From the NCBI GenBank assembly GCA_017473105.1, contig JAFUNE010000008.1, positions 1 through 64,000 of the forward strand: a DNA stretch of 64,000 bases, read 5' to 3'. The notes below the pieces were generated by a model. The model saw only the letters and a program-made list of their open reading frames with translations. It did not search any database and was not told where the DNA came from. Origin of the DNA: Bacilli bacterium (GTDB taxonomy: Bacteria > Bacillota_I > Bacilli_A > RF39 > UBA660). The position numbers were made by a program, and so were the translations under genes. Below, one piece after another: positions 14,097-48,047 of this stretch (within the stretch, counting starts at the first letter, position 1; each line of letters starts with the position of its first letter).

Positions 14097-14121
14097 AAAA
14101 AAAATCACATTAACTGTGATC
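14097..14121 (-). terminator. Terminator of the sigma-factor operon
   Basis: A 6-bp stem ATCACA/TGTGAT with a 5-nt loop is followed by a long T-run on the minus strand. It directly follows the TGA stop of the last sigma gene and separates it from the ABC-2 operon. Confidence 0.78.
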
Positions 14122-15331
14122 ATTTTTTTAAAATTCCAAATCTCATTTCAAAACCTGCATACTCTTTAATACGAGGATCAAATCTTAATTTTCTTATTGC
14201 AGCTTTTTCAATTTGTCTAATTCTCTCTCTTGAAACCTTAATAATTTTAGATATCTCATCATAATTATAAGCTTTTCCATAAAATCCATATCTATACTTT
14301 AATATCTCTCTTTCTCTATCATTTATATAAGGACAATTTATGAATAAATCATAAAATCCTTCATAAAAATAATTATCAATTTCTTTATCTATTTGAAAAT
14401 ATTCATCTTCAATAAAATCACCAAAAGTTGCATCATTATCTTCACTATTTTGAAGAGGAGTCGATAAAGAAACAATTGAATTCATATATCTAAGAGCAGT
14501 TTGTAAATTATCTTTATTAATATTTAATAAACTACACAACTCTTCTTCACTAGGTGTTTTACCATTATTATCTTTCATATATTGTTCTGTTACTTTTTTT
14601 ATTTTTATAATATTATCATGCACTTCAACAGGTACTTTTATACTTCTAGAATTATTAGCAATTTCTCTTTGAACACCTTGTTTTGCCCACCAAGTAGCAT
14701 ATGTAGAAAATTTACATCCTTTGCTAGCATCAAACTTTCTAGCAGCAGACATAATACCTTCATTAGCCCCTTGAATCAAATCAGTAAAATCTACACCTTG
14801 TCCTCTATACTTTTTAGCAATTGAAACACCTAAACGTAAATTATGTTCAACAAGTTTACTACGACCTTCTTCACCCATATTAGCAAGTTCTATTTCTTCT
14901 TCTCTTGTTAAAAGTTTAAACTGACCAATTTCATTTAAATAAACCTTTAATAAATCAAGGTCACTTCCCTTTTCATCATATAAAGCATCTATATCATTTT
15001 CTTGTTCATAGCCATTTCGAACACAATATAAATCTACTAAATTAATTAAATTAGAAAATCTACTAACACGAGTTAACGCTTGAGCCAAATACATTGAATA
15101 TAAAGAATTTCTTAATTTTTCACATTTATCAAGTAATCTTTCACTTTCAAGTTCTCCAATCATAATATTATTTTTATTTAAAAACTCACTTAATTTAACA
15201 AAATTTTCACTAACTTTTTTAGAATCAGTATCAACAACAAATTGTTTTTCAATAAAACTAACAACATTATTTATATCTTCTTCACTAGATAAAAAATGTA
15301 AATCTTCTTCATTATAATTAACTTCTTGCAT
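14120..15331 (-). CDS. Sigma-70 family factor, divergent paralogue
   Basis: This is the last of four tandem sigma-factor genes (403 residues). It has the lineage N-terminal module shared by three of them (about 1-115), then regions 1.2/2 with DLLKVYLNEIGQFKLL and RKFDASKGCKFSTYATWWAKQ, region 3, and region 4.2 ending SRERIRQIEKAAIRKLR. Region 2.4 reads WWAKQGVQRE where housekeeping sigma has WWIRQAITRS, so the position equivalent to E. coli T440, which helps read base -12, is Gln. Promoter preference may therefore differ. ATG 15331 is preceded by AAAGGAGATAAT, 18 bp after the previous gene. Confidence 0.88.
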   Translation of the reverse strand: MQEVNYNEEDLHFLSSEEDINNVVSFIEKQFVVDTDSKKVSENFVKLSEFLNKNNIMIGELESERLLDKCEKLRNSLYSMYLAQALTRVSRFSNLINLVDLYCVRNGYEQENDIDALYDEKGSDLDLLKVYLNEIGQFKLLTREEEIELANMGEEGRSKLVEHNLRLGVSIAKKYRGQGVDFTDLIQGANEGIMSAARKFDASKGCKFSTYATWWAKQGVQREIANNSRSIKVPVEVHDNIIKIKKVTEQYMKDNNGKTPSEEELCSLLNINKDNLQTALRYMNSIVSLSTPLQNSEDNDATFGDFIEDEYFQIDKEIDNYFYEGFYDLFINCPYINDREREILKYRYGFYGKAYNYDEISKIIKVSRERIRQIEKAAIRKLRFDPRIKEYAGFEMRFGILKK

Positions 15332-15348
15332 ATTATCTCCTTTCAATA

Positions 15349-16629
15349 TTATCTTCTATATCCTCCAAAATATATACCATCATCATATACGTCATTATAC
15401 CCATATAACATCTTTCTTGCATGGGCAACTTCAGCATCACACATAACATCAAATTTCGGATCAAAACTTCCAATAACAATATCTTTTTGTAATTTTCTAA
15501 GTGCTTGTAATTCAATTTGTCTAATTCTCTCACGAGTAACACCATACATGGCACCTATTTCTTCTAAAGTATATTTTTTATTATTATAAAATCCATTTCT
15601 TAACATCAAAATCTTTTTATCACGTTCACTAATTCTAGTAGTACTCATAAATTTAGACATAAAATCACGAATTATCATATCATCCATAGTATTATCAAAA
15701 TTAAGACGTTCATCTTCAATTAATTCACCAAGTTCTGTATCTGCACCATCTTCTCCTGCACCAATAGGAGCAGATAAAGATACTGTAATATCCATACATT
15801 TTTTAGCAAGTTCTATTTTTTCAACTGATAAATCTAACATCTTAGCAAGTTCTTCATTATTTGGATCATATCCACCATTTTGCATTTTATAAAGATTAAT
15901 TGCTTTTTTCATTCTAATAATATTTTCATGAATATGAACTGGTATTCTAATTGTTCTACTTCTATCAGCAATTCCTCTAGTTATACATTGTTTAACCCAA
16001 TATGTAGCATATGTAGAAAATTTACACCCTTTATTAGAAGCAAATTTTTTAGAAGCAACAACTAATCCTTCATTACCAAATTGAATTAAATCACCTAAAG
16101 GAAGACCATTACCTCTATATGTCTTAGCTATGGAAACAACAAGTTTTAAATTATGTTCACATAATTTACGTCTACCTTCTTCTCCTTGACTAATTAATTC
16201 TAATTCTTCTTCCTTTGTTAAAATAGAATAATCGCCAATCTCATTTAAATATAATTTAATTAAATCTATATCATTGCCATCACGACTATCACCATACATT
16301 TTATGATCAATATCTTTTTCAAGCTCATTTCCAGTTCTAATTGAATATAGTTGAACTAAATTAACAAGTTCTGGATATTTATTAACTCTTAATAATGTTT
16401 CAGCTAAATATAAAGTATAAAAAGTTTCATTTATCTTTTTAGATGAATCTAAAATCTTTTCACATTCTATAGCACCAAGTCTAATATTATTTTTCTTTAA
16501 AAAATTAGCTAAATTTGTAATATTATCAAATTGTCTATCTGAATTTTTACTTGTATTAAAAGACTTATCAATATAACTTATAACTTTATTTAATTCTTCT
16601 TCAGTACAAACTAATTCTAAATCATTCAT
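15349..16629 (-). CDS. Sigma-70 family factor, closest to housekeeping type
   Basis: This 426-residue sigma factor has the shared N-terminal module, then DLIKLYLNEIGDYSILTKEEE, the 2.3/2.4 region KFSTYATYWVKQCITRGIAD, TIRIPVHIHENI (3.0), and region 4.2 EEIGAMYGVTRERIRQIE. Of the three long paralogues it alone keeps both -12-reading residues of housekeeping sigma (Q in KQCIT and the following T). Its C terminus carries an extra tail of about 40 residues rich in D, Y and G. AAGGGGTTTTGAA precedes the ATG. Whether it is the primary sigma or one of several cannot be decided from this window. Confidence 0.88.
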   Translation of the reverse strand: MNDLELVCTEEELNKVISYIDKSFNTSKNSDRQFDNITNLANFLKKNNIRLGAIECEKILDSSKKINETFYTLYLAETLLRVNKYPELVNLVQLYSIRTGNELEKDIDHKMYGDSRDGNDIDLIKLYLNEIGDYSILTKEEELELISQGEEGRRKLCEHNLKLVVSIAKTYRGNGLPLGDLIQFGNEGLVVASKKFASNKGCKFSTYATYWVKQCITRGIADRSRTIRIPVHIHENIIRMKKAINLYKMQNGGYDPNNEELAKMLDLSVEKIELAKKCMDITVSLSAPIGAGEDGADTELGELIEDERLNFDNTMDDMIIRDFMSKFMSTTRISERDKKILMLRNGFYNNKKYTLEEIGAMYGVTRERIRQIELQALRKLQKDIVIGSFDPKFDVMCDAEVAHARKMLYGYNDVYDDGIYFGGYRR

Positions 16630-16676
16630 TTCAAAACCCCTTTTCCTTAAAAAAGTTCAAATAAGAAGTATTAAAT

Positions 16677-17954
16677 TTATAATACCATCTTTAAATTTGA
16701 ACTTCCTTTACTTTTTCTTTTTAATCTTAAATCATATTCTTTATCTATTTTTTTAGGATCAAATCTCCTAAGATAAATATCTCTTCTAACTTTTGTTAAA
16801 GCTTTCTTTTGAATTTGTCTAATTCTCTCACGAGTAACACCAAACATTTGACCTACTTCTTCAAGAGTATACTCTTTACCATCATAAAAACCAAATCTAT
16901 ATTTTAAAATTTCTTTTTCCTTAGGAGTAATATATCCAGATAATTCAAATGCTTCGAAGAATTCTTCTAAATATAATTTATGAGCATTATTTTCTAATGA
17001 ACTATTTGTATCCTCTATCATATCACCTAAAAAAGTATCATTAACTTCATCACCAGAACCACCTATAGGAGTTGAAAGAGACACTGTTAAATCCATATTA
17101 TTTCTAGCTATTACAACTTTATCAACAGGTATTCCTGACATTTCAGAAATTTTTTCATCACTAGGAAATTCTCCATTGTTTTCTACTGTATAAACAGAAA
17201 TTGCTTTTTTTACTTTAATTATATTTTCATGTAAATGAACAGGTATTCTAATCGTTCTACTTGCATCAGCTATACCTCTTTTCATATTTTGTTTAATCCA
17301 CCAAGTTGCATATGTAGAAAATCTACATCCTTTATTAACATCAAATTTTCTAGCAGCGATTATTAATCCTTCATTACCATATTGAATCAAATCACTAAGT
17401 GGAACACCAAGTCCTTTTAAAGTTTTAGCAATTGAAATAACAAGTCTTAAATTATGCTCTACTAATTTATTACTACCTTTTTCACCTTGAGATGCTAATA
17501 TTTTCTCTTCTTCAGCACTTAATAATTTAAATTCACCAACCTCAGCCAAATAAACTCTAAATAAATCTAAATCCTTACTTTCATAACTATGTTCATATAA
17601 ATCAACATCAACATCACGTGTTTGTTCAACATTATTCTCTGCACAATATATTTGAAATAAAGTAATTAAATTAGAATAATTATTAATTCTAACTAAAATA
17701 CCTGCCAAATATAATGCATGTAATGTATTAGACAATTTTTTTGATCTATTTAATAACTTTTCACATTCTAATTCTTCTATAAATAACGAATTTTTATTTA
17801 GAAAGTTTGATAGCTTAACCATATTTGACATTTGATTATTTGAGTTTGGAGTATTATCAAATGTTTTTTCAATATACTCAACAATCAAATTAACATCGTC
17901 ATCTGATATTTTCTCAACTAAATCAGTTTTAATAAATTCACTTTCTATTATCAT
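16677..17954 (-). CDS. Sigma-70 family factor, paralogue with altered -10 reading residue
   Basis: This 425-residue sigma factor has the same layout as its neighbours: N-terminal module (about 1-125), DLFRVYLAEVGEFKLLSAEEE, region 2 with CRFSTYATWWIKQNMKRGIAD, TIRIPVHLHENI, and region 4.2 EEVGQMFGVTRERIRQIQKKAL. The position of housekeeping T440 is Lys (KQNMK). The start is set at ATG 17954, preceded by AAGGGGGATAAT; the longer frame upstream lacks a ribosome binding site. It is the second gene of the array, 59 bp after the short sigma gene. Confidence 0.88.
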   Translation of the reverse strand: MIIESEFIKTDLVEKISDDDVNLIVEYIEKTFDNTPNSNNQMSNMVKLSNFLNKNSLFIEELECEKLLNRSKKLSNTLHALYLAGILVRINNYSNLITLFQIYCAENNVEQTRDVDVDLYEHSYESKDLDLFRVYLAEVGEFKLLSAEEEKILASQGEKGSNKLVEHNLRLVISIAKTLKGLGVPLSDLIQYGNEGLIIAARKFDVNKGCRFSTYATWWIKQNMKRGIADASRTIRIPVHLHENIIKVKKAISVYTVENNGEFPSDEKISEMSGIPVDKVVIARNNMDLTVSLSTPIGGSGDEVNDTFLGDMIEDTNSSLENNAHKLYLEEFFEAFELSGYITPKEKEILKYRFGFYDGKEYTLEEVGQMFGVTRERIRQIQKKALTKVRRDIYLRRFDPKKIDKEYDLRLKRKSKGSSNLKMVL

Positions 17955-18013
17955 ATTATTATCCCCCTTAAAGTCGCGTAAATTATACCACAAATTAACC
18001 AAAAAGTCAAATT

Positions 18014-18721
18014 TTACGCTTTTAATTTCTTTAAATCACTTTCTTTTAAACTAAAATCTTCAATATCCACTATACCTATAGATAATAAAAATTTTCTAAA
18101 TTTAAGTAAAGCTTCCATATGTGTCATTGAAACCCTTTGATGACTTATATTTAAAATCTCAGCAATTTCAACAAAAGTATACGCTTTACCATAAAAACCA
18201 TATCTCATTTTTAATATTTCTTTTTCTTTATTTGTTAAATATGTATTTCTAAAAAACTTATATATTATATTGTCATCATCTAAATTATGAACAACTTCAG
18301 TTTCTAAACTTTCAACATCAACAAAATCACAATCACTAGGAGAAATATCTTTCTTTAAAAAATGTGAACATTCCTTAACTCTTTCAATTGATAATCCTGT
18401 ATATTTGCATATTTCATCGAATGTTTTACATCCTGCTTTCTTAGCTTTTAATATTTTAAATATATCTATATAATAAGACGTTGAAGTAAAATGAATACAA
18501 TTTGCTTTCACAATAGCTTCATTTATATAAAAATGAATATAAATACTAATATAATCTCTAAATTTTTGTGTATTTTTATAATTATTAATTGCTCTAATTA
18601 CAGCTTCACAAGATATTTGAACTAAATCATCATAGGAAACACCAAATCCAAGATATTTTAAAACATTTTTCTTAATAAATTCCAAATTTTCTAATATAAC
18701 CTCTTCATTTCTTTTTTCCAT
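18014..18721 (-). CDS. Short sigma-70 family factor (no region 1 module)
   Basis: This is the first gene of the array (235 residues). It lacks the N-terminal module and regions 1.2 and much of 2.4 are poorly conserved. It keeps region 2-like LGFGVSYDDLVQISCEAVIRAI, a region 3-like TFDEICKYTGLSIERVKEC, and a clear region 4 (LTNKEKEILKMRYGFYG, then FVEIAEILNISHQRVS). It resembles alternative sigma factors of the group 3 type. GGGG precedes ATG 18721; an ATG four codons upstream is possible but has no ribosome binding site. A consensus promoter lies just upstream and would serve the whole array. Confidence 0.8.
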   Translation of the reverse strand: MEKRNEEVILENLEFIKKNVLKYLGFGVSYDDLVQISCEAVIRAINNYKNTQKFRDYISIYIHFYINEAIVKANCIHFTSTSYYIDIFKILKAKKAGCKTFDEICKYTGLSIERVKECSHFLKKDISPSDCDFVDVESLETEVVHNLDDDNIIYKFFRNTYLTNKEKEILKMRYGFYGKAYTFVEIAEILNISHQRVSMTHMEALLKFRKFLLSIGIVDIEDFSLKESDLKKLKA

Positions 18722-18745
18722 ATTTAACCCCATAAATTGAGCCAT

Positions 18746-18774
18746 ATTATACAATAAAATGTTCGTTTTGTCAA
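18746..18774 (-). promoter_or_regulatory. Consensus SigA-type promoter of the sigma-factor operon
   Basis: On the minus strand TTGACA (18769-18774), a 17-bp spacer and TATAAT (18746-18751) match the consensus perfectly. The first gene of the array starts 25 bp downstream. Confidence 0.88.
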
Positions 18775-18779
18775 ATAAA

Positions 18780-18802
18780 CAAAAAAGAAGCATAACGCTT
18801 CT
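18780..18802 (-). terminator. Terminator after the small membrane protein gene
   Basis: The stem AGAAGC/GCTTCT with a 5-nt loop is followed by TTTTTTG on the minus strand and overlaps the TAG stop of the 120-residue protein. Confidence 0.75.
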
Positions 18803-33457: not shown

Positions 33458-33470
33458 TCTAGAATCTTTT
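33438..33470. terminator. Bidirectional terminator between tex and the LamG pilin gene
   Basis: The 13-bp stem AAAAGATTCTAGA/TCTAGAATCTTTT with a 6-nt loop contains the tex stop codon and has T-runs on both strands. Confidence 0.85.
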
Positions 33471-35337
33471 ATTTTTCAATATTCCATCTATTATTAGCAT
33501 AATTCCAGTTATGCATAACTTCATCTTTCGATAATACTCTATTATATATAGCAATATCATACATCTTACCCTTAAATCTAAGTCCTCTTGTAGGTCTTAA
33601 ATCACCAATGGTAGCAACATTATATTTAATATTTTTATTACCAGAAGTAAATGTAACTGGATTTTGAACATCACCATTTATATATATACTAGTAGTACCA
33701 CCTTTAGTAGCAGTAATCTGTAAATTTAATTTCTTACCTTCATATTTACTTATATCAAATGAAATAAAAGCAGTTTTCTTTGTATATTTATTATTATTCC
33801 TATAACTACTACCATCATGATATGAATATACATGTAAATAATTTTTATAAACTCCAATCCAAGTTAAATATAAACCATAATCTTGAGATATAGCAAGTAT
33901 AGTAGCAGGGAATTCACCAGTAGGTTCTCCTTCTTGATTTAAAGTATCAGGAAAAACTGTTGTATATACAGAATATGATTGATTAATTCCCATTGATTGA
34001 GCAATATCAAGAATTGGAATACCTTCTCTAACATCCAATTTTAAAGCATCATTGTCATAATTAAATTTCTCAAAACCAAAACAATCATCTAAAGAACAAT
34101 GCTTTGTTCCATGAAAATCACCAGCATCCTCTTTATCCATAGGATAAAAATCACCAAATCTAATAGGACTAGCATTTTCTTTAGACGCAATTGTTAACTC
34201 TCCATCATTAACTATTCCTGGATTAATATGGACATCAAAATCAAAATGTATTTTTTGAATATTATTTTGAGAAGTAAAATCCATTGAGAATGAATTATCA
34301 CTACGAGTATAAAAATAAATACCACCATTTAAATAATTTGAATATTTATTAAGTTCACTTTCACTAAGTATCGCAGCTTTATAAACCTTCTCGTTAATAT
34401 TATTAGTTTTCATAACAAGTTCATCTCTAAATATATTTTTAAATTTATAAGTAGATGTACTTATATTTTTAACTTTTACATTTAAAGTACCAACATCAGT
34501 ATTTCTAGGAACAAAAATACCAGTTTGATTATATGCAATATTAGCTCCCTTACTAGAAGTAACACCATTAATTAACATACCAGGATTAACTTTTTTAACT
34601 TTTATTTTATTTGCATAATTATGTTTAACAACTATTTCTTCTTTAGATGCATCTTTTTCTATATTTGTAGTAGTAGAAACTTCAAGAGCATATGTTTTAT
34701 CAACTTTCATAGAATCAATCATACTCTTAGTAAGTTTAACAAAACCAATGTAATCTTCAGTTTTACTTGGAACAGTAAAATCCCCATTTAATTTTGTGTT
34801 TCCATAAGAAACATTAAACTTCAAATCAAAATCACTCATATTAGTAATAATAACTGGAACACTATCATTTTGATCGTAAATATCGTACGTATTAGTATAG
34901 ACAAATACATAATCAGTAGCAACATTATCTTTTATATATTCAAGTTTACTACTAGGATTCTCTTCTTCTAAATCAATAACTCCACTCTCTCCACCATTTT
35001 CACTATATTGATAAAAATGTTCACCATCACTCACTTCCAGATATTTTAAACTTCCATCTCTATTTAACTCAGCATAATAATCAAGTTCACGACCATCCAT
35101 ATCAAGCTGATAATCACCAACTGAAGATATAACTGGAGGTACATCTTTACCATTTAAAGAAGAACTAAACGCCTCTTTTTGTATCTCCTTTTTTATAGTT
35201 TCAACCTCGTTTGTAAAACTCTTAACTTTTGACTCCTTAAACATTTTTAAAATATTTGGCATCGCCACTATAACAAGAATCGCAAGTATTGCAATTACAG
35301 CAAGCAACTCTACTAAAGTAAAACCACGTTTTTTCAT
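33469..35337 (-). CDS. Giant type IV pilin-like protein with LamG-like C terminus (copy B)
   Basis: The 622-residue protein starts with a class III prepilin leader (MKKRG, cleavage before FTLVELLAVIAILAILVIVA, with the conserved Glu at position 5 of the mature form). The N-terminal helix is followed by a conserved stretch (LDMDGRELDYYAELNRDGSL, about residues 78-98) and beta-rich regions. Two cysteines (HCSLDDCFG, about 430) are followed by a concanavalin/LamG-like domain to about 615. Ordinary pilins and pseudopilins are about 100-200 residues, so this is several times larger. It is the second of two adjacent paralogues and may be an adhesin on a pilus-like fibre. No pilus motor or prepilin peptidase is in the window. 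Confidence 0.85.
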   Translation of the reverse strand: MKKRGFTLVELLAVIAILAILVIVAMPNILKMFKESKVKSFTNEVETIKKEIQKEAFSSSLNGKDVPPVISSVGDYQLDMDGRELDYYAELNRDGSLKYLEVSDGEHFYQYSENGGESGVIDLEEENPSSKLEYIKDNVATDYVFVYTNTYDIYDQNDSVPVIITNMSDFDLKFNVSYGNTKLNGDFTVPSKTEDYIGFVKLTKSMIDSMKVDKTYALEVSTTTNIEKDASKEEIVVKHNYANKIKVKKVNPGMLINGVTSSKGANIAYNQTGIFVPRNTDVGTLNVKVKNISTSTYKFKNIFRDELVMKTNNINEKVYKAAILSESELNKYSNYLNGGIYFYTRSDNSFSMDFTSQNNIQKIHFDFDVHINPGIVNDGELTIASKENASPIRFGDFYPMDKEDAGDFHGTKHCSLDDCFGFEKFNYDNDALKLDVREGIPILDIAQSMGINQSYSVYTTVFPDTLNQEGEPTGEFPATILAISQDYGLYLTWIGVYKNYLHVYSYHDGSSYRNNNKYTKKTAFISFDISKYEGKKLNLQITATKGGTTSIYINGDVQNPVTFTSGNKNIKYNVATIGDLRPTRGLRFKGKMYDIAIYNRVLSKDEVMHNWNYANNRWNIEK

Positions 35338-35383
35338 ATATCTTCACCTATTATTAATTATACATCAAATTAATCATAAAAAC

Positions 35384-35412
35384 AAAAATTCTAGAATTAT
35401 TTCTAGAATTTT
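35384..35412 (-). terminator. Terminator between the two LamG pilin genes
   Basis: A perfect 12-bp stem AAAATTCTAGAA/TTCTAGAATTTT with loop TTAT lies just after the first pilin gene's stop. The second pilin therefore likely has its own promoter or relies on read-through. Confidence 0.78.
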
Positions 35413-35413
35413 A

Positions 35414-37297
35414 TTAATTTATATTCCAAGTATTTTTAGCATGATTCCAGTTGTAAGCAACCGCATCACTAGAGAGTTCAACATTATATAAAGTTACATC
35501 ATACATACTACCTGTAAATTTAAGCCCTCTACTAGGTCTTAAATCACCAATAGTAGCAATAGTATAAGATACAGCATCTCCACCTGAAGCAAACTCTCTA
35601 ATTAACTTACCATTAATGTATACTCTTGTCATACCAGTTCTACTTGCAGTAACTTGAATATTCATAACTTTACCTTCATATTGTCCAATCGGAATAGATG
35701 CAAATCCTGGCTCAGTAGTATCACCACGTTGACCACTCTTAGCAGTTCCTTCATAATAAGAATAAACTTGTAAATAACCTTCGTAAATACCAATCCAAGA
35801 AAGATATTTAGTATTTGCTTCACTTATTGCAAGAATTGTAGCAGGGAAACTTCCTGCTGGGTAACCAGATTGATTTGTTGTACCATTAATTGTTGTATAC
35901 ACTGAATAAGAATCTTGAACACTCATTGATTGAGCAATCTTTAAAGCAAGTGTACCATAATTAGCACCAAGTAATAACTCTCCGGTAGGAACATTTTCTA
36001 AAATACCCTTTGTACCAAAACATACAGATTTTTTACATAAAGACTCTTTATGATATTGTTCAGCAACAGAACTATCTTGTAATTTAAAATCACCAAAGCT
36101 TTTTGTATCAAATGTTTCTTTTGAAGCAATAGTGATATTACCATTGTGATAAACACCAGGATTTATATATTCTTCAAAATCAAAGAAAATCTTTTGAACA
36201 TAATCTTGACTAGCAAAACTCATATCAAATCTATATGTATCCTTTGGATGAATATATTCACCATTTTTTAAATATGCTTGATATTTTAATAACTCTTCTC
36301 CAGTAATAGTAACATCAAAGTATTTTTTATTATTAATTTTATTTTCTTCAACAGGCATTAAAGCTTGTCTATTTATATTTGTAAATTTATATGTTTTTGT
36401 TAAATTAGCATCATAAACAGTTACGTTTAATATACCAATATCTACTCCACGAGGAACAAAAATACCTGACTGATTAAATGCTATTTTATCATTGTTAGAC
36501 GTAGAAGTTACTTTCTTAATAATCATACCAGGATTAACACGTTTAACCTTAACCTTATTAGCATAACTATGTTTAACAATAATGTCTTCTTTTCCCTCTA
36601 AGTCTTTACCTAAATTAATATCAGCTTCAATTTTTAATGGATATGATTTACCAACACTCATAGAACTAACCATACTCTTTGCTAGTTTAACAAAAATCAC
36701 ATGATCTATTGCACCACCAGGCACAACATAATCAGCACCTATCTTAGTATTACCATAATATATATCAATCTTAATCTCATTTGAACTGGTATTAGTTATA
36801 ATTACAGGAACACTATTTGTTTCATCATATATATTGTAAGTATTCGTATATACAAAAATATTTTCTGTTGCAACATTATTTTTAATATATTCTATTTTAC
36901 TAGGAACATCTTCATCTTTATCAGCAAAATCAATAACTTCACCTGTTCCAGTCATACCATCAGAATATTGATAATAAAACTCCCCATCACTAACTTCTAA
37001 ATATTTTAAACTACCATCCCTATTTAATTCAGCATAATAATCTAAATCACGACCATCCATATCAAGTTGAAAATCACCTACAGAAGATATAACAGGAGGA
37101 GGATTTTCATTCTTTAAAGATGAATTCAACACCTCTTTATTTATTTCATTCTTTATTGTTTCAACCTCAGTAGTAAAGCTTTTTTGTTTTGATTCCTTAA
37201 ACATCTTAAGCACATTTGGCATCGCAACAATAACAAGTATTGCAAGTATAGAAATAACAGCAAGTAACTCTACTAATGTAAAACCACGCTTTTTCAT
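35414..37297 (-). CDS. Giant type IV pilin-like protein with LamG-like C terminus (copy A)
   Basis: The 627-residue paralogue of the downstream gene has the same prepilin leader (MKKRG then FTLVELLAVISILAILVIVA), the conserved LDMDGRDLDYYAELNRDGSL stretch, the paired cysteines (LCKKSVCFGTKG) and a C-terminal LamG-like domain (about 400-615, with RVYINGKLIREF and YTIATIGDLRPSRGLKFTGS). The copies are alike throughout but differ at many positions, so the duplication is not recent. The C-terminal fold often binds carbohydrate or protein partners; a surface adhesin role is inferred. The start ATG is used without a strong alternative upstream. Confidence 0.85.
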   Translation of the reverse strand: MKKRGFTLVELLAVISILAILVIVAMPNVLKMFKESKQKSFTTEVETIKNEINKEVLNSSLKNENPPPVISSVGDFQLDMDGRDLDYYAELNRDGSLKYLEVSDGEFYYQYSDGMTGTGEVIDFADKDEDVPSKIEYIKNNVATENIFVYTNTYNIYDETNSVPVIITNTSSNEIKIDIYYGNTKIGADYVVPGGAIDHVIFVKLAKSMVSSMSVGKSYPLKIEADINLGKDLEGKEDIIVKHSYANKVKVKRVNPGMIIKKVTSTSNNDKIAFNQSGIFVPRGVDIGILNVTVYDANLTKTYKFTNINRQALMPVEENKINNKKYFDVTITGEELLKYQAYLKNGEYIHPKDTYRFDMSFASQDYVQKIFFDFEEYINPGVYHNGNITIASKETFDTKSFGDFKLQDSSVAEQYHKESLCKKSVCFGTKGILENVPTGELLLGANYGTLALKIAQSMSVQDSYSVYTTINGTTNQSGYPAGSFPATILAISEANTKYLSWIGIYEGYLQVYSYYEGTAKSGQRGDTTEPGFASIPIGQYEGKVMNIQVTASRTGMTRVYINGKLIREFASGGDAVSYTIATIGDLRPSRGLKFTGSMYDVTLYNVELSSDAVAYNWNHAKNTWNIN

Positions 37298-43865: not shown

Positions 43866-43874
43866 TGTTATAAT
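43866..43874 (+). promoter_or_regulatory. Extended -10 promoter of the IspH fusion gene
   Basis: TGTTATAAT is an extended -10 element 23 bp before ATG 43898, with no good -35 at the usual spacing. The same nine bases occur upstream of mgtE, the HIT gene and the CPBP protease gene. Confidence 0.6.
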
Positions 43875-43897
43875 TTTTTAAAGAAATGAGGTACTTT

Positions 43898-45790
43898 ATG
43901 ATATATTATCCAAAAACATACGGAACATGCACAGGTGCTAATAAAGCAATAAATTTAGCATACAAATTAAAAAAAGAAAATAAAGATAAAAACATTGTTA
44001 TCTACAAAGAAATATTACATAATCCATATGTAATAAAAGAATTAAAAAAAGATAATATAATTTGCATAGATGATTTAACTAAAATTAATAAAAATGATAT
44101 TGTTATTATAAGAGCACACGGAGAAACACTAGAAACATTTAAATATCTAGAAGATAATAATATAGAATACTACGATTCAACATGTATAAATGTTAAAAAA
44201 GTACACGATATAGTAGCAGAAAAATATAATAATAATTTCAAAATAATTATTGTAGGTAAAAAAACACACCCAGAAGTAATCGGAACAAACTCAAGATGCA
44301 ATAACGAAGCAATAATCGTAGAATCACCAAATGATTATGAAAATATAAATAAAAATGAAAAATATTATGTCGTATGCCAAACAACAATTGGTTATGAAAC
44401 AGTATCAGGTTTATTAAACTACCTTAATATAAATAACATAAAATATGAACACACAAACACAATATGTCCACATCAAAAACTAATACAAAGTAGTTCAGTT
44501 TCATTATCAGAACAAATGGATATAATGTTTATTATAGGTGGTAAACACAGTTCAAATACAAAAGAACTTTATAATCAATGCAAAAAAGTATGTGCTAGAT
44601 CATACCATGTTGATGATATAAATGAATTCTACGAAATAATAAAAAAAGAAGATATTTCTTATACAACAAAAATCGGAATTACAGCTGGTGGCTCTACCCC
44701 AAAAAATCAAATACAAGAATTTTCAAACTTACTAGAATTTACAATCTATTATAAAAATAAAGTAAAAGAATTAAATAAAGAACTAAATAAATATAATAAA
44801 ACATTATTAAATGATAATGACAATAAAATAATAACTGACGCAGTTAATAAATTTATCAATATGAATAGTGACGGAAAATTCTTAAGAGGATGCCTAATAG
44901 ACTTAGGATACAAACTAAATAAAAATGATGACTATGCAAACTCACTTGCAATCGCATATGAAACGTTTCAAACAGCAATTTTAGTACATGACGATATTAT
45001 AGATAATGCTTCCCTTAGACGTGGAAAAGAAACAATTCATAAAACTTACAATAAAGAATTTTCAAAATATAACCACAATGAAAACATACATAACAATCTA
45101 GCATTATGTATTGGAGATTTAGGATTCTTTTATACAAATGAATTAATAATTAAAAAATATAAAAATGATAAAAATTTCATAAAACTATTTAACTATTATA
45201 ATCAAATAGTTATAAATACCATTAAAGGTGAAATAATTGATGTATATTTACCATTTAAAGAAAAATATGATAAAGAAAATATTTTATCTCACGAAGATAT
45301 ATTTGAAATATATAAACTTAAAACATCTTGGTATTCAGTAGTAGGACCATTCGTACTTGGTATGATACTTTCTAACTCAAGTGCAAAAAATATAAAAGAA
45401 ATGGAAACTATACTAGAAAATATTGGTATTTCTTTCCAAATTAAAGATGATATCTTAGGAATATTTAGTTCAAAAGATATTCTAGGTAAAAGCGTTTATA
45501 GTGATATAGAAGAATTCAAACAAACTATTTTATATTCATATATTAAAATTGAAAAACCAGAATATTTAAATGAATTATTAAAATATTATGGAAAAGAAAA
45601 TATTTCAGAAAATGATGCTAAAAATGTACAAGACATAATGATACAAAGTGGCGCACTTGATTATGCAAATAACATGATGAATAATTTATTTAATGATTCA
45701 AAAGAAAAAATAAATAATCTTGATATAAGTGAATACATTAAAAACATACTTCTAGGATTAATAACATATTTAGAAATAAGAGAAAAGTAA
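43898..45790 (+). CDS. IspH - polyprenyl synthase fusion protein
   Basis: Two isoprenoid enzymes lie in one 630-residue frame. Residues 1-285 are IspH, the last enzyme of the MEP pathway making IPP and DMAPP: cluster cysteines C11, C96 and C190, H41, H74 (RAHG), H124 and E126 (KKTHPEV), SSN at 218-220 and S266. After a linker (about 285-305), residues about 306-630 are a trans-prenyl synthase: GKFLRG, first Asp motif DDIID (365-369), the RRG segment (374-376) and second motif DDILG (517-521). One polypeptide may thus make and elongate the C5 units. ATG 43898 follows GAGGTACTTT, four codons after an upstream ATG. Neither domain has an obvious missing residue. Confidence 0.92.
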   Translation: MIYYPKTYGTCTGANKAINLAYKLKKENKDKNIVIYKEILHNPYVIKELKKDNIICIDDLTKINKNDIVIIRAHGETLETFKYLEDNNIEYYDSTCINVKKVHDIVAEKYNNNFKIIIVGKKTHPEVIGTNSRCNNEAIIVESPNDYENINKNEKYYVVCQTTIGYETVSGLLNYLNINNIKYEHTNTICPHQKLIQSSSVSLSEQMDIMFIIGGKHSSNTKELYNQCKKVCARSYHVDDINEFYEIIKKEDISYTTKIGITAGGSTPKNQIQEFSNLLEFTIYYKNKVKELNKELNKYNKTLLNDNDNKIITDAVNKFINMNSDGKFLRGCLIDLGYKLNKNDDYANSLAIAYETFQTAILVHDDIIDNASLRRGKETIHKTYNKEFSKYNHNENIHNNLALCIGDLGFFYTNELIIKKYKNDKNFIKLFNYYNQIVINTIKGEIIDVYLPFKEKYDKENILSHEDIFEIYKLKTSWYSVVGPFVLGMILSNSSAKNIKEMETILENIGISFQIKDDILGIFSSKDILGKSVYSDIEEFKQTILYSYIKIEKPEYLNELLKYYGKENISENDAKNVQDIMIQSGALDYANNMMNNLFNDSKEKINNLDISEYIKNILLGLITYLEIREK

Positions 45791-47342: not shown

Positions 47343-48047
47343 TTATTTTACACTACCTTTTGTAATATTTCTATTTTGATAGTCATAAAGTGCTTTATCA
47401 AATTCTTCTTCATTAAAATCTGGAAAACAAGTATCAGTAAAATAAAGTTCAGCATAACTAATACTATATAACATAAAATTACTAATTCTTACCTCTCCAC
47501 TTGTTCTTATCATTAAATCAACTGGTGGTAAATCATTATATTGATATTTATAATAAGTTTCTTCATTAATATCATCAATATTAATTTCACCATTTTTTAC
47601 CATTAAAGCAAGTTTACGAGCAGTATCTACTATCTCAGCTTGTCCCCCATAGTTTATACAAACATTAAATACTCCACGAGTACAATCCTTAGTAGCATTC
47701 TCTACTTCCTTCATAACTGAATAAACTTCATCACTTAAAGGATCACGTCTACCAGAAAATACAACTTTAACATCATTTTCAATAAAGAAATTTTTATCTT
47801 TCTTAAATGCAGTAACAAATAAATTCATTAAATAATTTACTTCTTCTACACTTCTTTTAAAATTTTCAGTAGAAAAAGCAAATACACTTAAATATTTAAC
47901 ACCTTTATCTAATATATGTAATGCTGTTTTCTTAAATGTTTTATATCCAGCATAATGTCCATCAGTTCTTTTTTTACCTTGTCTTGTTGCCCATCTTCCA
48001 TTACCATCCATAATAATCGCAACATGATTTGGAATATCATTCTTCAT
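47343..48047 (-). CDS. uppS: Undecaprenyl diphosphate synthase (cis-prenyltransferase)
   Basis: UppS makes the C55 lipid carrier for cell-wall synthesis from FPP and IPP. The 234-residue protein has HVAIIMDGNGRWA (catalytic Asp), FAFSTENFKR, CINYGGQ, and IRTSGEVRISNFMLY, the substrate-binding motifs. GAGAGGAAG precedes the ATG. The IspH-prenyl synthase fusion encoded nearby would supply its allylic substrate. Confidence 0.95.
   Translation of the reverse strand: MKNDIPNHVAIIMDGNGRWATRQGKKRTDGHYAGYKTFKKTALHILDKGVKYLSVFAFSTENFKRSVEEVNYLMNLFVTAFKKDKNFFIENDVKVVFSGRRDPLSDEVYSVMKEVENATKDCTRGVFNVCINYGGQAEIVDTARKLALMVKNGEINIDDINEETYYKYQYNDLPPVDLMIRTSGEVRISNFMLYSISYAELYFTDTCFPDFNEEEFDKALYDYQNRNITKGSVK

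Follow-up and report, generated by a model that had tools for sequence, protein, structure and literature searches.

The window analysed here is a stretch of 64,000 nucleotides from a Bacilli bacterium (GTDB lineage Bacillota_I; Bacilli_A; RF39; UBA660; assembly GCA_017473105.1, contig JAFUNE010000008.1, positions 1 to 64,000). A single open reading frame on its forward strand (43886–45790, 634 amino acids) encodes both IspH and a trans-prenyl diphosphate synthase, each of them intact, and the original prediction that these enzymes share one frame is borne out by the frame itself and by both Pfam domains. The likelier start is the ATG at 43898, which has a GAGG standing 6 nt ahead of it and gives a protein of 630 amino acids; a homologue of the same length that is 98% identical (P0001) agrees with this choice. 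Residues are numbered here in the 634-residue frame, four higher than in the original prediction, whose coordinates and residues are correct once shifted in this way. The features of the locus are these:

43869..43874, forward strand: TATAAT preceded by TG, promoter-like (motif scan)
43888..43891, forward strand: GAGG, likely ribosome-binding site (sequence reading)
43898..45790, forward strand: IspH–trans-prenyl diphosphate synthase fusion gene, 630 amino acids; frame open from 43886
43904..44734, forward strand: IspH (LytB) domain, residues 7–283 (Pfam PF02401, 236 bits; fold match 3dnf)
43928..43930, forward strand: Cys15 codon, cluster ligand (residue check)
44183..44185, forward strand: Cys100 codon, cluster ligand (residue check)
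44465..44467, forward strand: Cys194 codon, cluster ligand (residue check)
44702..44803, forward strand: single continuous helix between the domains, residues 273–306 (AlphaFold2 model)
44744..45787, forward strand: trans-prenyl diphosphate synthase domain, residues about 287–634
44990..45004, forward strand: first Asp-rich motif DDIID, residues 369–373 (residue check)
45446..45460, forward strand: second Asp-rich motif DDILG, residues 521–525 (residue check)
47343..48047, reverse strand: uppS, cis-prenyl transferase, likely user of the fusion product (PF01255, 240 bits)

Promoter-like sites of the TATAAT type are not enriched in the region (41 found, against a shuffle mean of 44.8).

The LYTB model (PF02401) matches the first half with 236.1 bits against a cut-off of 24.5, and TIGR00216 (ispH_lytB) exceeds its curated cut-off (218.8 versus 187.85). 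All 12 IspH sites examined are present (C15, C100, C194, H45, H78, H128, E130, T166, S222, S223, N224 and S270); we take the cysteines to be cluster ligands and the His, Glu, Thr, Ser and Asn residues to bind HMBPP. With DDIID and DDILG also in place, the catalytic residues are kept in both halves, as had been proposed, and to judge from its sequence the window protein probably reduces HMBPP to IPP and DMAPP. The dN/dS values of the IspH and synthase halves are similar in pairs of intact fusions from related genomes (0.10 versus 0.12 in G203/G267, 0.33 versus 0.31 in G002/G352 and 0.33 versus 0.35 in G052/G059), so the IspH half is kept about as well as the synthase in the window's clade. Pairing the window with G352 (0.29 versus 0.26) or with G002 (0.19 versus 0.34) gives values made uncertain by high dS.

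The second half belongs to the trans-prenyl diphosphate synthases by its family model (polyprenyl_synt at residues 325–584, 153 bits, far above cut-off), its two Asp-rich motifs, a GKxxR motif and its all-helical fold. It scores under every NCBIfam synthase cut-off, and the IspA and FPP synthase models are not reached (PRK10581 27.2 bits where 321 are needed; FPPsyn 75.3 versus 275). The top fold matches are instead the IdsA-type enzymes Rv2173 of Mycobacterium tuberculosis and the GGPP synthase of Corynebacterium glutamicum (3qqv). The window synthase is structurally like these IdsA-type enzymes but only about 20% identical to them, and, unlike them, is fused to IspH. Its product would be a trans-prenyl diphosphate, FPP or GGPP; under the chain-length rule, an Ala five positions before DDIID would point to C20 or longer.

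An AlphaFold2 model of the fusion (pLDDT 92.2, pTM 0.88) links the halves by one helix of 34 residues, which, if the model is right, would hold them rigidly together. The IspH fold is recovered from this model by Foldseek (3dnf, E 6e-18, TMt 0.79), while the structures listed by VIA-align cover the synthase half alone, this one domain filling the list.

The gene uppS lies in the window, as had been noted, and in the relative G002 it stands directly downstream of the fusion. An ireB–ruvX–mltG block next to the fusion is common to the window, G002 and G352. At the other intact-fusion loci (L100–L107, and L001 with only 5.1 kb) none of 17 window genes other than the fusion was matched, and inspection by eye of the first residues of neighbours of at least 150 amino acids at L100–L106 revealed no salvage gene. 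Elsewhere on the reverse strand of the window we noticed, by eye, four consecutive sigma-70-like genes (14120–18793; 408, 426, 441 and 259 amino acids) and a tandem of similar prepilin-like proteins with a long C-terminal part (33469–37297; 622 and 627 amino acids).

Recurrence of the fusion

A protein search returned 1468 matches among 7998 scored candidates, and all 120 of the matches listed carry both Pfam domains in 625–630 amino acids; source names among those listed are Candidatus Aphodocola, Mollicutes bacterium and Bacilli bacterium. Peptide patterns found the fusion in two GTDB genomes and whole-genome searching found it in more. In a tree, the fused IspHs are monophyletic with respect to 14 stand-alone IspHs (SH-aLRT 100), the pattern expected from one fusion event, and the recurrence in a single clade that had been envisaged is thus seen across many genomes. 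The same recurrence in homologues and separate genomes excludes an assembly or sequencing artefact that deleted a stop codon, an explanation with nothing in its favour and a negligible probability, and with it the join or lost stop near 44800 raised as a possible flaw of the original prediction.

The synthases were placed in a quick LG+G4 tree with SH-aLRT support only, its labels being taken from residue counts on one alignment. The window's sub-clade comprises 28 intact fusions and one truncated form among 29 rows (SH-aLRT 87). For one genome, G190, the truncated label may be wrong, the alignment behind it being weak (15% identity, 65 sites), and the N-terminal stretches of five other forms (G095, G149, G247, G123 and G216) are only 11–20% identical to IspH, which does not support their being remnants. 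Synthase-only forms may have lost IspH or may be older than the fusion.

Isoprenoid genes in related genomes

The nearest searchable relatives of the window are G002 and G352 (61% identity). Of the 288 genomes searched in G002's order, 48 have a trans-prenyl synthase, 28 have IspH and 164 have UppS; by these counts most UppS-bearing genomes of the order have no visible FPP source. Each of the 48 synthase-bearing genomes has exactly one synthase match, so that a second prenyl synthase is missing from all of them, as it is from G001 and G002, and no second IspH was found in the nine intact-fusion genomes of this sample, eight of which have UppS. The suggested absence of stand-alone ispH and ispA hence holds for these relatives, nine genomes for IspH and 48 for the synthase, and is limited to them.

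Twelve genomes with an intact fusion (G001, G002, G352, G127, G054, G358, G267, G052, G203, G179, G059 and G147; Ser223 is replaced by His in G203 and G267) were compared for other pathway genes. IspG is missing from 11 of the 12, G147 being the sole carrier, a count that for G352 and G358 assumes that the IspG and fusion searches used the identical draw of 243 genomes; within this family draw only six genomes have IspG. Neither IspF nor HMG-CoA synthase was found in any of 64 genomes, which include all 12, and the mevalonate route was accordingly rejected as a replacement. Dxr occurs in three of the ten intact-fusion genomes searched for it (G001, G147 and G203; G352 and G358 lie outside that sample). 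Fusion, Dxr and IspG occur together in G147, and some intact-fusion genomes may keep more of the MEP pathway. Of the MEP enzymes, these searches covered Dxr, IspF, IspG and IspH, and the related genomes are mostly fragmented, which bears on the absences. In 14 control genomes the searches detected the synthase and UppS in all 14, IspH in 10 (nine over cut-off), IspG in nine, IspF in nine, Dxr in 10 and HMG-CoA synthase in seven (six over cut-off).

No isomerase exceeded its cut-off in the 64 genomes, for either IDI-2 or IDI-1. Sub-cut-off matches to IDI-2 occur in three of them and to IDI-1 in 24, six with intact fusions; the latter are perhaps general NUDIX proteins and could include an isomerase. 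An isomerase might be expected where IspH is eroded, an expectation left unsupported by the lack of any match above cut-off in genomes of either class.

Stand-alone IspHs of the order resemble the fused ones in having the same residues in most cases and in being mostly orphans (IspG in three of 10 such genomes), but they fall outside the fused clade (SH-aLRT 100). Four genomes (G010, G066, G204 and G377) have IspG and a stand-alone IspH without IspF, and the first three also lack Dxr, a gene set that would suit entry at MEcPP; the stand-alone IspH match of G377 is flagged with two stops.

The fusion had been proposed to couple the last MEP step to chain elongation. That proposal is supported in part: the IspH and synthase halves are intact, but the pathway that should feed them lacks IspG in 11 and IspF in all 12 of the relatives. 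With IspG, IspF and HMG-CoA synthase missing there, HMBPP is probably either acquired externally or made by some unrecognised route. We thus favor, at a probability of about one half, the reading that the fusion is a bifunctional entry enzyme of a cut-down isoprenoid route supplied with external HMBPP. The N-terminal half would reduce HMBPP to IPP and DMAPP at its [4Fe-4S] cluster, the C-terminal half would condense the two to a trans-prenyl diphosphate, and UppS would lengthen this to the cell-wall lipid carrier. No isomerase would be needed because IspH yields both C5 isomers. The fusion would be the first retained step in a lineage from which most upstream MEP enzymes appear to be gone, probably also from the window's own genome, and HMBPP, or MEcPP where IspG is kept, would probably be taken from neighbouring bacteria.

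Efflux of MEcPP from engineered E. coli, documented in the accessible part of PMC3487848, shows that cells can release an intermediate from late in the MEP pathway. A literature search on HMBPP uptake or salvage gave no paper on import by bacteria, judged by title. As far as the accessible text goes, a survey of bacterial MEP pathways describes incomplete pathways mostly without Dxs and no candidate bypassing IspG plus IspH (PMC10663253), and a 2026 review considers it underappreciated how heterogeneous isoprenoid acquisition is among reduced genomes and notes that HMBPP activates human gamma-delta T cells (PMC13001223). Counting against salvage, the part of a study of the gut lineages RF39 and RFN20 that we could consult lists the remaining MEP genes for each of its four representatives, save ispD in one, unlike our intact-fusion sample; ispA is missing from three of the four and the source of FPP is called 'unclear' (PMC7301438).

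The best-surviving alternative is that the window's own genome has a full MEP pathway and that the fusion is an ordinary bifunctional enzyme passing IPP and DMAPP to its synthase. All IspH and synthase residues of the window protein are intact, one relative (G147) combines fusion, IspG and Dxr, and the gene losses are known from relatives rather than from the window's own genome. Nevertheless, the nearest relatives G002 and G352 are without IspG and IspF, G002 also without Dxr, and the rarity of IspG (6/243) and absence of IspF (0/64) extend through the wider samples, which makes this alternative rather unlikely.

Loss of IspH catalysis with retained cysteines

Outside the window's sub-clade the IspH half has had a different fate. 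Ten IspH sites (the three cysteines and seven others) were scored in 280 aligned rows, near-copies included, of which 245 are full-length fusions. All ten sites are kept in 200 of these. A second class of 25 retains the three cysteines with no more than two of the seven others, a third class of 20 retains no more than one cysteine and one other site, and none is intermediate between these three classes. Dereplication at 85% leaves 123 rows, namely 63 intact, 15 with only the three cysteines, 13 with at most one cysteine, 15 truncated and 17 synthase-only. Cysteine content itself defines the three-cysteine class, and the informative part is how the 28 catalytically dead rows split: three cysteines in 15, two in none, one in three and none in 10. 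His45 and His78 are absent from all 28, while N46, L88 and I93 are kept in all 28, so that some positions are conserved better than the cysteines, whose peculiarity is a joint fate, being retained or lost together.

All dead rows lie inside one 59-row sub-clade of the synthase tree (SH-aLRT 100), sister to that of the window, and its ability to dispense with IspH catalysis also counts against the favored reading. Catalysis was lost there repeatedly, in nine lineages by manual grouping, a number that may be too high given many weak forks, and in at least five by starred, well-supported branches (those with G181, G070/G251, G037, G213 and P0151), assuming that it was never regained. The cysteine triad is kept, in most of their rows, by six of the nine grouped lineages and lost in three, and it is kept in four of the five separated by starred branches; by program count these branches force at least six changes of the three-cysteine label and at least three of the other. 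Genome G236 (L110, L111) has a dead-type fusion beside an intact stand-alone IspH. These patterns suggest, from aligned sequences, that the cluster may be kept for structure, sensing or another reaction in dead lineages.

The IspH half might accordingly act mainly as a sensor of redox state or iron, its [4Fe-4S] cluster gating the synthase through the helix, with HMBPP reduction secondary or, in places, gone. The nearly all-or-nothing retention of the cysteines agrees with this, as do the relaxation of the IspH half in two of three dead pairs (dN/dS 0.73 and 0.93; 0.39 in the third) and an AlphaFold2 model of a dead-type protein (pLDDT 92.2) that predicts the same helix. No IspH chain is among the 50 best Foldseek matches of that model, and the view of its first half as an IspH fold rests on pLDDT and a LYTB match of 78.5 bits. 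However, the window's sub-clade keeps HMBPP-binding residues that would be superfluous for sensing alone, and the three lineages without cysteines still retain the domain or part of it; the sensor reading is quite unlikely.

Highly improbable for the window is a reading in which the IspH half serves only as a scaffold or survives as a decaying remnant, its frame kept for translation of the synthase. Full-length forms do persist without cysteines or other residues, one of which (P0166) is still recognised as LYTB with 108.6 bits, and what remains of the domain in the cysteine-less pair G213/G214 is constrained (dN/dS 0.11 over 190 codons). Truncated forms of 453–470 amino acids (L072, L070, L071 and L023) align with the last IspH lobe at 22–28% identity over 92–108 positions, and the tentative nature of a remnant reading follows from the absence of LYTB in L072, the one truncated form scanned with Pfam. 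In the window's sub-clade, by contrast, the IspH residues persist and the two halves have similar dN/dS values.

An apparently new partner for IspH

The accessible part of Rao et al. 2015 (PMC4746011) describes IspH–RPS1 and five other annotated IspH fusion types, UbiA being the commonest partner, and a trans-prenyl synthase is not among the types described there. As in IspH–RPS1 and IspH–UbiA, both reported from anaerobes in that part of the source and the former frequently from the gut, IspH here has a C-terminal partner, and UbiA likewise uses prenyl diphosphates (PMC4746011). Unlike both, the partner found here is a soluble trans-prenyl diphosphate synthase, a direct user of IPP and DMAPP, and the fusion occurs mostly in genomes without IspG. 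The window protein is not of the IspH–RPS1 type: NF000907 gives 243.3 against the 624 required, from the IspH part alone, and Pfam finds no S1 domain. A literature search for IspH/LytB–polyprenyl synthetase fusions, with subscription papers mostly outside its reach, found no report. As far as this search reaches, the IspH–trans-prenyl synthase is a new type among IspH fusions, clade-wide and in an unusual orphan setting, and it is this setting, together with the retained cysteines, that is surprising.

Both aspects might be combined, in that the lipid carrier would be made from neighbours' late MEP intermediates through a rigid fusion, and in lineages without a working reductase the cluster would persist to gate prenyl synthesis by redox state or iron; that both parts hold is unlikely. 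The favored reading of an entry enzyme fed with HMBPP would help to explain the isoprenoid supply of wall-making, reduced-genome Bacilli without a complete pathway, and it offers a case in which cross-feeding on MEP intermediates, HMBPP among them, can be tested. Moreover, lineages that independently gave up catalysis but retained the cysteines amount to a natural experiment on the role of the cluster for the prenyl synthase.
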